A DNA stretch of 42,266 nucleotides from a virus: IMG/VR virus record IMGVR_UViG_3300047408_000085, positions 1 through 42,266 of that record. One strand, given 5' to 3'. The translations under genes and the position numbers were made by a program. The notes beneath the pieces are model-generated. The model had not been told where the DNA came from and did no database searches. It saw only the letters and a program-made list of their open reading frames with translations. Shown here piece by piece: positions 33,006-37,183 of this stretch (its first letter is position 1; the number at the start of each line of letters is the position of its first letter).

Positions 33006-33212
33006 ATGGCCCGCGTCCGCCTTACGTTCCGCGAGCGAGATGTTACAGCCGCTATTCGAGCGGTCAAGCGAGCGGGCGGAACGGTGGCGCGGGTCGAGAT
33101 CCGGGATGGTGGCGTAAGCATAGTGCTTACGGAAAAGCCGGGCCTCGATGCGGACAACACGACAATCGATGAGGATCAAATCAATGCCTTCGTTGAGAAT
33201 AAAATACGTTAA
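33006..33212 (+). CDS. Small hypothetical protein upstream of integrase
   Basis: 68 residues from ATG 33006. 'VRLTFRERDVTAAIRAVKRA' then 'GGTVARVEIRDGGVSIVLTE' predict a compact beta-alpha-beta fold. It overlaps the integrase start by 29 bases, and this type of small gene often precedes integrases in alphaproteobacterial prophages. Possibly an excisionase-like or regulatory partner, but no HTH is visible. Confidence 0.6.
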   Translation: MARVRLTFRERDVTAAIRAVKRAGGTVARVEIRDGGVSIVLTEKPGLDADNTTIDEDQINAFVENKIR

Positions 33213-34257
33213 TCTGTTCGAGACGCGATGGGGAAAGCCCATCTGCTATTTCCGGCGCGGCGGCGTCCGGATCCCTCTCACGGCGAAGTTTGGCTCGGCG
33301 ACATGGTGGGCGCAGTACACCGCCGCGCTCAACGGCCAGCCTTTGCCGCCGGATGGTCCGGGCGTCGGCGCCGAGCGCACGATCCCGCGCTCCCTCGATG
33401 CGGTCGTCGTCTCGTTGATGCAGACGGCGGATTATCAGGGCTTGGCGCATCACTCGAAGCGGTCCTATCAGGCGGGCTTCAAACAGCTCCGCGAGCATTT
33501 CGGCAAAAAGGATATTCGCGTGTTCGAGCACGCGGCGCTCGCGAAAATCTTCAACGGCGTCGCGAAGAAAAAGCCCGGCTCCGCGAACGAATTGCTCCGC
33601 GTCATGCGGGCGATCTTCAAGCACGCGCGGACCCTCGGCTATCGCAATGATGATCCGACGACGGGCTTGAAAAAGCGCGGCCTTGTCAACGAGGAGGGGC
33701 ATTATTCCTGGCTAGACGAGGATATCGAGCGGTATCGCGCGCATCATCCCCTCGGCACGGCGGCGCGGCTCGCGTTGGAGATCGCGCTCAACACGGGCTT
33801 GCGGCGCAGCGATCTCGTGCTCCTCGGGCGCCAGCATGTCCGCGACGGGAAGATCCGCATCAAGCCGGTAAAGACGGCCAAGAAAAACATTTGGGTTTCG
33901 ATCCCGGTAACGCCCGCGCTTCGCGCCGCGATCGATGCGATGCCGCCGCGGGATAGTGGACTCGCGCTCCTCGGCAATCCGGCGAACGGCGGCAGGGATT
34001 ACAGCGCGGACACATTCGGCAAGGCGTTCGCCGGATGGTGCAACGAGGCGGGCCTCCCGCCGCAAGCTCGGGCGCATGGTCTGCGAAAGGCGATTGTCCG
34101 GATCCTCGTCGATCTCGGTGTCGAGTTCCTCGACATCATGGCGATCACCGGCCACCGCGATCCGAAAACGCTCATGATCTATGCGCGGGATCGTAATCAA
34201 GCAAAGCTCGCCGAGCGCGCGATGGGCAAGATGATCGCGGCGGGAGGGGCGGCATGA
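33184..34257 (+). CDS. int: Tyrosine-family site-specific integrase
   Basis: 357 residues from ATG 33184 (GAGGA about eight bases upstream); a longer frame to 33148 overlaps the previous gene. N-terminal domain: 'LRIKYVNLFETRWGKPICYF' through 'YTAALNGQPLPP' (1-56). Core-binding domain about 65-165. Catalytic residues: R207 ('NTGLRRSDL'), K230, H298 and R301 ('AHGLRKA'), H324 ('TGHRD') and nucleophile Y333 ('MIYARD'). It integrates the phage DNA. attP was not located. Its N-terminal domain reappears in the GIY-YIG protein at 36127-36669. Confidence 0.93.
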   Translation: MPSLRIKYVNLFETRWGKPICYFRRGGVRIPLTAKFGSATWWAQYTAALNGQPLPPDGPGVGAERTIPRSLDAVVVSLMQTADYQGLAHHSKRSYQAGFKQLREHFGKKDIRVFEHAALAKIFNGVAKKKPGSANELLRVMRAIFKHARTLGYRNDDPTTGLKKRGLVNEEGHYSWLDEDIERYRAHHPLGTAARLALEIALNTGLRRSDLVLLGRQHVRDGKIRIKPVKTAKKNIWVSIPVTPALRAAIDAMPPRDSGLALLGNPANGGRDYSADTFGKAFAGWCNEAGLPPQARAHGLRKAIVRILVDLGVEFLDIMAITGHRDPKTLMIYARDRNQAKLAERAMGKMIAAGGAA

Positions 34258-34690: not shown

Positions 34691-34935
34691 CAGCCTCGTA
34701 TCGGCCCGGCACCGGGCAAAGCATCGAGGCGATCTATGCATGGGTTGCGACGGAGCCGGACGGCGGCGAGGGGGTTTGTTCGGCACAGATCGGCGGCACG
34801 CATATGCCGCTCGTCGGCGCCGACATGGACCGCATGAAAAGCTTACGCCCCCATGCCGAATTCATTCACAAAATGGGCGGGTACCCGGTGCGCCTCGTCC
34901 GGTTCGGATCACGCGAGGATTTGGAGATCCTATGA
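34687..34935 (+). CDS. Small hypothetical protein
   Basis: 82 residues from ATG 34687, preceded by GGAGGAG. 'IEAIYAWVATEPDGGEGVCS', 'GTHMPLVGADMDRMKSLRPH' and 'GGYPVRLVRFGSREDLEIL' look like a small beta-rich protein. Common in prophages of alphaproteobacteria as I read it; function unknown. Confidence 0.65.
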   Translation: MTASYRPGTGQSIEAIYAWVATEPDGGEGVCSAQIGGTHMPLVGADMDRMKSLRPHAEFIHKMGGYPVRLVRFGSREDLEIL

Positions 34936-35534
34936 GCATCGAGCCGCTCGCCCGCGGGATCTCCCGCATCGTCCCGCCCATCAAGCGGAGCTGCGGCGGC
35001 TGCACCCTCTGTTGCCAGCTTATCGGCGTGGCGGAGCTCAACAAAAAATCATTCGAGGATTGCGTCCACCGTCACGGCGTCTTGCACGCCAGCGGGCCCG
35101 GCTGCGGCATCTATGCCAGCCGCCCCCGATCGTGCGCCGCATGGGCTTGTATGTGGCTCCGCAGCGATCCTACGGACTGGCCCGAGGCGGAGCGGCCCGA
35201 TCGCGTCGGCTTCGTCGTCGACGAGCTCGTCGATCTGATCCGCCTAAACGGTGTCGAGACGCCCGCGGCGCAGATTTGGGTATCGCAGGGCTTCGATGAT
35301 GCATGGCGGCAGGATCCGGGGACGGCGATCATCGCCGCCCTGATCAACAAAGGGCTTGCCGTGCTTTGGCGCCTCTATGGCGGCAAGGAGTCGATCGCCT
35401 TCGCGCGCAACAAGGATGGCGAGATCGAGCGATCGCTCCCGACGCCGATCATCCGCGACGATCGCCTCGGCGACGAGGCGGAACGCTCGCGCCGGGTTGC
35501 CGAGATCGCCGCGCGCCGGGGAGCGAAGCTATGA
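34932..35534 (+). CDS. YkgJ-family metal/Fe-S cysteine-cluster protein
   Basis: 200 residues, ATGA-coupled. The cluster 'SCGGCTLCCQLIGVAEL' (C21, C24, C27, C28), then C44, C58 ('GPGCGIYASRP'), C68 and C73, matches the YkgJ/CxxCxxCC zinc- or iron-chelating domain. The long C-terminal half ('LINKGLAVLWRLYGGKE') is not assigned. YkgJ proteins are poorly understood; in phages they are sometimes found near base-modification or nuclease genes. Function not determined. Confidence 0.8.
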   Translation: MSIEPLARGISRIVPPIKRSCGGCTLCCQLIGVAELNKKSFEDCVHRHGVLHASGPGCGIYASRPRSCAAWACMWLRSDPTDWPEAERPDRVGFVVDELVDLIRLNGVETPAAQIWVSQGFDDAWRQDPGTAIIAALINKGLAVLWRLYGGKESIAFARNKDGEIERSLPTPIIRDDRLGDEAERSRRVAEIAARRGAKL

Positions 35535-35797
35535 TTTTCCGCGGCCCGATCGACTGGCTCTGGCGCAGCCGCGAGCCTGCGAGAAGCCCGCCCGATCCGA
35601 GATATCCCCGCGGCATCGCGGTTGATCTCACACAAGGCGCGAGCGTCCGCTGTTTGGTTCACGTGCCATATCCCGCGCAGGGCGTCGGGACATGGTTGAT
35701 CCGCTGCGAGGCTTGCGGATGGCAAGGCGCCGTGACAGCCGCCGGTCGCGACGACGATCCGATGATCGTTTTGATCCCGTGCAAATCCGATGCGTGA
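35531..35797 (+). CDS. Small protein with CxxC element
   Basis: 88 residues from ATG 35531 (ATGA). 'WLIRCEACGWQGAVTAAGRD' contains a CxxC zinc-ribbon half, with other Cys in 'SVRCLVHV' and 'VLIPCKSDA'. Possibly a small zinc ribbon. Neighbour of another CxxC protein. Confidence 0.55.
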   Translation: MIFRGPIDWLWRSREPARSPPDPRYPRGIAVDLTQGASVRCLVHVPYPAQGVGTWLIRCEACGWQGAVTAAGRDDDPMIVLIPCKSDA

Positions 35798-35800
35798 GCC

Positions 35801-36004
35801 ATGAGCCGCCGCTACACGATCACGCTCGACGGTCGCGCGATCACCTGCGAGACATGCGGCTTGACGAGCCATAACCGGCACGATGTCGAGGAGCGGTATT
35901 GCGGGAATTGTCATGTATTCCACGACGATCCCGCCGATCCCGCGGGAAAGCACATTAGCAAACCAACCGCGCCAGGTTTGCTCAATCGAGGGAAAAATCG
36001 TTGA
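35801..36004 (+). CDS. Small zinc-ribbon-like protein
   Basis: 67 residues from ATG 35801. Two CxxC knuckles: 'AITCETCGLTSHN' and 'RYCGNCHVF', spaced for a zinc ribbon, followed by a basic tail. The 3' end of the gene contains the inverted pair of AGCAAACC repeats. Function unknown. Confidence 0.7.
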   Translation: MSRRYTITLDGRAITCETCGLTSHNRHDVEERYCGNCHVFHDDPADPAGKHISKPTAPGLLNRGKNR

Positions 36005-36150
36005 GTTTCAATGCCAAAAAATTCGCGTCTGATATCCCGGCGAAATGCGGCGATCTCGCCATATCAGACACATAGCACTAGCAAACCACCCTCAACGGAC
36101 CCAAACAGCATCAATAGGTTGGCCGGATGCCCCGAAAAACTGGCAAACCA
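35957..36150. repeat. Cluster of AGCAAACC repeats
   Basis: AGCAAACC (35957-35964) is followed after 10 bases by its inverse GGTTTGCT (35975-35982); a direct copy lies at 36080-36087 and GGCAAACC at 36142-36149. Four copies in 194 bp, on both sides of a hairpin and running into the start of the GIY-YIG gene, are more than expected by chance. They are candidate binding sites for the integrase-like domain or for the integrase itself. Confidence 0.55.
36027..36069. other. Long hairpin/cruciform in the 36005-36126 gap
   Basis: GTCTGATAT (36027-36035) pairs with ATATCAGAC (36061-36069), and GGCGA (36039-36043) pairs with TCGCC (36056-36060), leaving a CCC bulge and a 12-base loop. No T-tract follows, so it is not a classical terminator. 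It lies between AGCAAACC copies in a 122-base noncoding gap. Confidence 0.6.
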
Positions 36151-36669
36151 GATAATGCCGATCAACGTCCCGTCCCGCAACGGCGAGACGGTAAGCTGAG
36201 ATATCTAAAGAGCTTCACTGACCGGCACGGCAAGCGCCGAAATTATTTCAGGCGTCGCGGGCTTTTGATCGCCCTACCGGGCCGACCAGGGAGCGCCAAA
36301 TTCATCGAGGCATATCGCGCAGCTCTTGCCGGAACGCCGCTGCCCCCGGCGAGAAAGGAAGCGGCTATTACATCATTGGAGCGAGCCAGCAACGGGCATC
36401 GCCCGGCGATTGGTGTCTATCTCTTGATGCTCGGCGGGGAGATTGTTTACGTCGGCTCTAGTTTGAACATGCATCATCGGGTTGCCGGTCACAGGATCGC
36501 CGGTCGTCCCTTCGATCAGGTTTTTTATATTGGCACCAAACTAACGGAGCGCATCCGGTTAGAACGCGCATTGATCGCCGCGCTCGCGCCTCGACAGAAC
36601 CGGATCGGCGTCAAGGTCCGGCGAGATCGCGAATTACCGGCTCACGAATCCGGTTGGGCAAAGGGATGA
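36127..36669 (+). CDS. GIY-YIG nuclease fused to an integrase-type N-terminal domain
   Basis: 180 residues from ATG 36127. Residues about 24-74 ('LRYLKSFTDRHGKRRNYF' to 'YRAALAGTPLPP') match the N-terminal domain of the phage integrase, position by position ('LRIKYVNLFETRWGK..CYFRR' to 'YTAALNGQPLPP'). Residues 94-162 form a GIY-YIG core: G96-V97-Y98, Y108-V109-G110, R118, H122, catalytic E146 ('RIRLERALIA') and N158 ('PRQNR'). It could be a nuclease targeted by the integrase DNA-binding module to att-like or operator sites. The fusion is seen directly; the function is inferred. Confidence 0.75.
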   Translation: MPRKTGKPDNADQRPVPQRRDGKLRYLKSFTDRHGKRRNYFRRRGLLIALPGRPGSAKFIEAYRAALAGTPLPPARKEAAITSLERASNGHRPAIGVYLLMLGGEIVYVGSSLNMHHRVAGHRIAGRPFDQVFYIGTKLTERIRLERALIAALAPRQNRIGVKVRRDRELPAHESGWAKG

Positions 36670-36937: not shown

Positions 36938-37183
36938 ATGGAGTCTGAGGAGCTATTAACGCGGGCGGGCCGCTTGCTTTACGGGCAGCGGTGGATCCCG
37001 CAACTCTCAAAGGCGCTCGGTTTGCCTAACGGCGAGGTGCGGCTATGGCACTCGGGGCGCCGGAAGATCCCGGCGGTCCTGTGGCTCGATCTGCGCCGGT
37101 TGCTCCGGATCCGGCAACGCGAGCTGTCCGCCTTGCAGCGGGAGATCAGGGCGGAGATCGAGCGCGACGACGAGGCGCCCTAG
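36938..37183 (+). CDS. Small HTH protein at the end of the rightward arm
   Basis: 81 residues from ATG 36938. 'RWIPQLSKALGLPNGEVRLW' then 'HSGRRKIPAVLWLDLRRLLR' resembles an HTH with a basic second helix, similar to small prophage Cro-like proteins. The C-terminus is a charged helix. It is preceded by its own inverted repeat, so it may be transcribed separately from the upstream operon. Confidence 0.65.
   Translation: MESEELLTRAGRLLYGQRWIPQLSKALGLPNGEVRLWHSGRRKIPAVLWLDLRRLLRIRQRELSALQREIRAEIERDDEAP

Follow-up and report, generated by a model that had tools for sequence, protein, structure and literature searches.

The window, by which we mean the whole 42,266 nt stretch of viral DNA that was analysed (IMG/VR record IMGVR_UViG_3300047408_000085), encodes a chimeric protein of 180 aa in which the arm-type DNA-binding domain of tyrosine integrases is joined to a GIY-YIG nuclease (36127..36669, + strand). 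We suggest that the chimera is an attachment-site-directed nuclease, similar in action to the origin-directed nuclease Odn of phage ICP1, that would cut the att sites of competing elements. We give this reading a probability of roughly 0.45. The domain identity, the catalytic residues, purifying selection, recurrence with other nuclease folds and the position at attachment sites are directly supported.

Domain architecture and predicted fold of the chimera

The co-resident tyrosine integrase is encoded at 33148..34257 (Pfam Phage_integrase 3e-15, phrog_1 4e-36), and alignment to the chimera places its arm domain at about 33196-33351, both on the + strand. A pairwise BLASTP comparison gives an ungapped alignment between residues 23-74 of the chimera (36193..36348, + strand) and residues 17-68 of the integrase, with 24 of 52 positions identical (46%, E 5e-11). 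With the chimera as query, the integrase arm was also recovered from the window's own record at E 1e-8. An earlier note on this DNA had proposed the arm alignment from the motifs YFRR, GSA, AAL and G-x-PLPP, and it is borne out, with all four motifs inside the BLASTP alignment. The chimera does not contain the tyrosine recombinase catalytic domain, R...HxxR...Y, within its 180 aa, and gave no Phage_integrase match in Pfam.

The GIY-YIG domain covers residues 94-162 (36406..36612, + strand) and was assigned from its motifs, a fold match and weak matches to PHROG endonucleases. Reading of the sequence places the core at residues 94-160, with G96-V-Y98, Y108-V-G110, R118, H122, E146 and N158, and the GIY...YIG motifs, the catalytic Arg and Glu and the C-terminal Asn of the superfamily are all present. 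It should be noted that profiles miss divergent members. The chimera had no match in Pfam at E up to 1 and matched PHROG endonuclease families at E 0.02, while no informative name was obtained from Pfam, NCBIfam or PADLOC, and PDB sequence searches found nothing for it. The PADLOC matches to UzuA and PDC are weak and restricted to the nuclease half, and were rejected.

AlphaFold2 predicts a beta-beta-beta-alpha unit at residues 27-68 of the chimera (strands 27-31, 37-43 and 46-50, helix 57-68) and equivalent elements at near-equal spacing in the integrase N-terminus (strands 14-18, 24-30 and 33-37, helix 44-54). The kinship that the earlier note saw between the two N-terminal domains is thus matched by a common βββα unit in the predicted models, that of the chimera being as a whole of moderate confidence (mean pLDDT 64). 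In structure searches the N-terminal half of the chimera matched a viral 'Integrase family protein' with an rmsd of 1.1 Å over 45 columns and a probability of 1.00, at an E-value of only 0.16. For the C-terminal half, the best matches among solved structures were UvrC GIY-YIG domains (VIA Z 6.3, 73 residues, rmsd 3.6), and GIY-YIG proteins made up most of the best 12 rows, so the predicted model of this half has the GIY-YIG fold. The integrase model matches lambda Int (VIA Z 19.9) in rows that span integrase residues 71-361, with the N-terminal domain outside them.

Conservation in related phages

IMG/VR contains a near-identical phage (L003), on whose contig the integrase is 99% identical, and a clearly different phage (L004) that encodes the chimera at 73% identity. 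A further contig (L005) is nearly identical to L004. All the GIY-YIG motif residues listed above are invariant in the L004 orthologue. The nuclease core with R118, E146 and N158, as originally proposed, therefore stands on these invariant motifs together with the structural match to UvrC, and conservation among homologues extends to Sinorhizobium phage NV1.1.1, with R, H, E and N kept both there and in L004.

The chimera genes of the window and L004 differ by a dS of about 1.1, and their dN/dS is 0.18 over the full length, with the arm domain at 0.20 and the GIY-YIG domain at 0.12. With ratios of about 0.2 and 0.12, both halves of the chimera are under purifying selection. Beside the chimera, in the window as in L004, lies a gene for a small protein of 81 aa that belongs to the phrog_12690 family of unknown function (36938..37183, + strand).

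A repeat array at the start of the chimera gene

The AGCAAACC-type DNA to which the earlier note pointed is present, and the heptamer GCAAACC has four copies within 193 bp at the start of the chimera gene. From a repeat search and the layout in L004 we identified four putative arm-type sites, namely site 1 (AGCAAACC, 35957..35964, + strand), site 2, the inverted partner of site 1 (35975..35982, - strand), site 3 (AGCAAACC, 36080..36087, + strand) and site 4 (GGCAAACC, 36142..36149, + strand), the last of which lies in codons 6-8 of the chimera. GCAAACC alone weighs little because many GC-rich 7-mers cluster in the window; the weight comes from the layout, which is kept in L004. There, CAAACC-type sites are found at 671, 686, 811 and 879, in the same order and orientation as in the window (+, -, +, +). 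The spacings are 16/107/62 in the window and 15/125/68 in L004, the intervening DNA is hardly alignable, and the array overlaps the start of the chimera gene in both phages.

No att core and no attB were identified for the window phage, and we thus infer from the layout that the CAAACC-type sites are the arm array of a putative attP. The candidate core region lies between the inner arm-type sites (35983..36079) and was placed by position only. A perfect 9-bp inverted repeat, GTCTGATAT/ATATCAGAC, with its halves 25 nt apart, is found at 36027-36069, in the middle of the putative attP, and is absent from L004.

Chimeras in three unrelated prophages

We searched 397 genomes from the order to which a Variibacter MAG belongs, first with the fusion as query and afterwards with the arm profile. 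These genomes hold about 150 arm-domain places, two of which are chimeras (G228 and G314), and 187 genomes from the order of a Phaeobacter genome gave one more (G958). No chimera was found among frames shorter than 330 aa in 178 genomes of the Novosphingobium order and 385 genomes drawn from the class, a search that chimeras in longer frames would escape. Relatives of P0004 and of the G958 chimera (P0008) were not found among viral contigs. Apparent two-domain matches in seven genomes (G015, G062, G149, G192, G263, G327 and G370) turned out on translation to be unrelated frames or an internally deleted integrase. Short arm frames in sixteen genomes (G200, G369, G392, G142, G649, G080, G515, G076, G622, G838, G899, G917, G799, G854, G955 and G971) were truncated integrases or noise.

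The chimeras of G228 (P0006, L107) and G314 (P0007, L109) combine the arm domain with a T5orf172/MUG113 nuclease (Pfam 1e-8 to 6e-10), which is a domain of the GIY-YIG superfamily. That of G958 (L159) combines it with an HNH/endonuclease-VII domain (phrog_3322, E 7e-21). The survey of genomes that the earlier note had proposed turned up fusions beside tyrosine integrases, with other nucleases. The three prophages are unrelated, and in each of them the chimera is the last gene, comes directly after int and ends within about 35 bp of the attachment core. The G228 and G314 elements are also present as IMG/VR proviruses (L142 and L140, respectively).

The G228 chimera begins at the stop of int. 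Its end lies 30 bp from a perfect att repeat of 27 bp, which spans the 5' end of a tRNA-Gly and has a second copy 46.2 kb away. In G314, where int is interrupted, the chimera overlaps the end of int, and 14 bp separate its own end from the 3' end of a tRNA-Glu. A 16-bp att repeat is located there, whose second copy is 41.6 kb away. The integrase of this prophage (L109:5034-6154) is split into two frames, and the chimera downstream of it is intact.

The prophage in G958 is about 38 kb long and encodes the integrase followed by the chimera at L159:1888-3591. A gap of 10 bp separates int from the chimera, whose end is about 21 bp from a 9-bp core, TTGGTTTTT. A second copy of the core is 38.4 kb away, and the prophage sits in a nirB-like gene. 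BLAST gave no long att repeat for this element, and the core was located by inspecting the sequence between the arm-type repeats. Joining the two flanks restores one continuous nirB-like frame, to which one flank contributes pyridine-nucleotide oxidoreductase domains and the other Fer2_BFD.

All three chimera frames contain a short repeat pair 4-51 bp from the stop codon. The pairs are AGTCCAAC, inverted, in G228; TGGGACA, direct, in G314; and TGCGGGACAC, direct, in G958. Further copies are found near the far att end of each prophage, and G228 and G958 each have three exact copies and no others in about 60 kb. These repeats look like putative arm-type sites of an attP that was split by integration. 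Simulation of the G228 att regions yields a comparable repeat in about 20% of cases, so the repeat of a single element is not significant and the argument lies in its recurrence in three elements. The link to attachment sites made in the earlier note is supported by arrays that overlap the gene in the window and L004, and by terminal genes in three prophages with mapped cores.

Origin of the arm domain

Scans with the arm domain gave 41 loci in bacterial genomes and, in two separate searches, 36 and 17 other viral loci. Leaving aside the chimeras themselves and two frames that are truncated or lie at a contig edge (L060 and L078), all of these are N-termini of tyrosine integrases, and the N-terminus of the chimera is therefore an integrase arm domain. 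Judged by sequence, it belongs to a large tyrosine-integrase family centred on alphaproteobacteria. Integrase arm domains resemble AP2 domains.

According to the earlier note, the chimera carries the N-terminal domain of its own integrase. This fits G228, where the own integrase ranks first or second among the matches to the chimera arm, and G958, where the two are 60% identical. It fits the window less well, where other integrases are closer and the co-resident one ranks 25th of 89 over the whole domain and 69th of 89 over the sheet only; in G314 other integrases are likewise closer than its own. A tree of 55 columns with long branches does not reject a clade of the window chimera and its own integrase, and a copying of the window arm from that integrase is neither supported nor rejected by it.

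Relation to known systems

A full-text literature search, with subscription papers mostly outside its scope, found no description of the arm-nuclease architecture. The earlier note knew of no described system with this architecture, which holds to that extent and has to be qualified by a close functional precedent, Odn (Gp88) of phage ICP1 (PMC8263062). At its N-terminus Odn shares 42% identity with the RepA_N domain of PLE1, and it cuts the origin of the PLE satellite through its T5orf172 domain (PMC8263062). RepA_N-T5orf172 proteins have also been proposed in coliphages (PMC10448857). Both Odn and the chimera join a domain shared with a DNA-binding protein of a mobile element (42% identical to RepA_N in Odn, 46% identical to the integrase in the chimera) to a C-terminal nuclease of the GIY-YIG superfamily. 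They differ in the targeting module, which is a replication initiator domain in Odn and a tyrosine-integrase arm in the chimera, and in the target, which is an origin for Odn and is expected to be an attachment site for the chimera. Furthermore, the GIY-YIG domain of the window is of a type that Pfam does not recognise, whereas T5orf172 is found only in G228 and G314. Since an arm domain takes the place of RepA_N, the chimera may work like Odn and is not an Odn orthologue.

Alphaproteobacterial tyrosine integrases with a D-R-H-G-K...FRR...LPG...GS arm, such as that of Agrobacterium phage Rivra, share the N-terminal domain of the chimera in sequence and predicted fold, but the chimera has a nuclease in place of their core-binding and catalytic recombinase domains. 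With the UvrC N-terminal domain, I-TevI and Eco29kI the chimera shares the predicted GIY-YIG fold and the catalytic Arg/Glu/Asn pattern; unlike in these, its nuclease is C-terminal and is partnered by an integrase arm for DNA binding. HNH homing endonucleases make use of AP2 domains (PMC10448857) and, like the chimera, join a nuclease to a small beta-sheet DNA-binding module, but the chimera has a different module and sits at a putative attP.

A related arrangement is found in Sinorhizobium phage NV1.1.1 (L008:1448-3333, OP484858.1), where a protein with an excisionase-like HTH and a GIY-YIG domain is encoded directly after a tyrosine integrase, with overlapping ends. Its GIY-YIG domain is related to that of the window, with G, V, Y, Y, G, R, H, E and N kept, and its N-terminus is HTH_17/excisionase-like by weak profile matches (E 0.03-0.06). 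From these matches, the protein may be a fifth case, with the DNA-binding module of an excisionase in place of that of an integrase.

Proposed function and alternatives

In brief, we propose that the arm module would bring the GIY-YIG nuclease to the arm-type repeats that flank the core of attP, or of attL and attR, and that the nuclease would then cut or nick at the attachment site. The most likely benefit would be interference with other integrating elements whose arm sites are the same or related. Such an incomer, a phage or a satellite, would present an intact attP, while that of a resident prophage is split into attL and attR about 40 kb apart, and the resident might be spared for this reason. 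DNA binding to the repeats, cleavage, the target and the benefit are what we infer from the features described above. There is also a risk that a nuclease binding its own arm sites would cut its own attP, and we identified no device that would protect it. Moreover, the prophage chimeras are coupled to int, and may therefore be expressed with integration rather than against it.

This coupling leads to an alternative that we consider unlikely, though worth weighing, in which the chimera regulates the integration or excision of its own phage. It would compete for arm sites, or nick attP or attL to set topology or direction, and the nuclease would be accessory or act in cis. The genes in G228 and G958 start at or just after the int stop and have their own integrase among the closest arm matches, the repeats of the window overlap the chimera's own start codon, a possible place for autorepression, and in NV1.1.1 the integrase is directly followed by an excisionase-like HTH joined to GIY-YIG. 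A pure competitor would, however, have no need to keep the catalytic residues of different nuclease families, and in the window and G314 other integrases are the closer matches to the arm domain.

We find it rather improbable that the chimera is a free-standing homing endonuclease that happens to bind DNA through an arm-type domain and spreads into attP regions, where it interrupts no essential gene. A modular build of nuclease and DNA-binding domain is typical of the free-standing homing endonucleases of phages (PMC10448857), their genes often adjoin their target, and the patchy distribution, with two chimeras in about 150 arm-domain places of one order, is as such a gene would have it. On the other hand, the nuclease type varies between loci while the arm domain and the place are constant, which fits repeated recruitment of nucleases to an arm domain better than the spread of a single selfish gene. 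For the window locus, no empty allele was found. That a duplicated or truncated integrase gene was fused to a neighbouring nuclease gene without a selected function is very improbable and already disfavoured. Truncated arm-domain frames without a nuclease do occur, but dN/dS of about 0.2 and 0.12, intact frames in four lineages, conserved catalytic residues and the recurrent place all speak against it.

The att-site nuclease reading can be extended, in a tentative and on the whole doubtful form, to a class of att-directed nucleases. Phages would repeatedly join an arm to whichever nuclease is available (GIY-YIG, T5orf172 or HNH) and keep the gene at attP, where the split attP of the resident and the intact attP of the incomer would serve as a distinction between self and non-self. 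Odn targets a parasite with a nuclease by means of a domain borrowed from the parasite's own origin-binding protein, and the chimeras suggest that this trick arose several times with the DNA-binding arm of a recombinase, directed at integration. Temperate phages would then, if this is true, have a sequence-specific system of conflict among themselves, and otherwise nameless small genes at prophage ends would be explained.

Neighbouring genes

Between int and the chimera, the window encodes a cysteine-rich protein of unknown function (phrog_9155, 34917-35534). The neighbours downstream of this gene (35531-36004) also have CxxC pairs. In Pseudanabaena phage Pam5 (L006:4160-6044) an unfused MUG113/T5orf172 gene is located one small gene upstream of an integrase with an arm domain.
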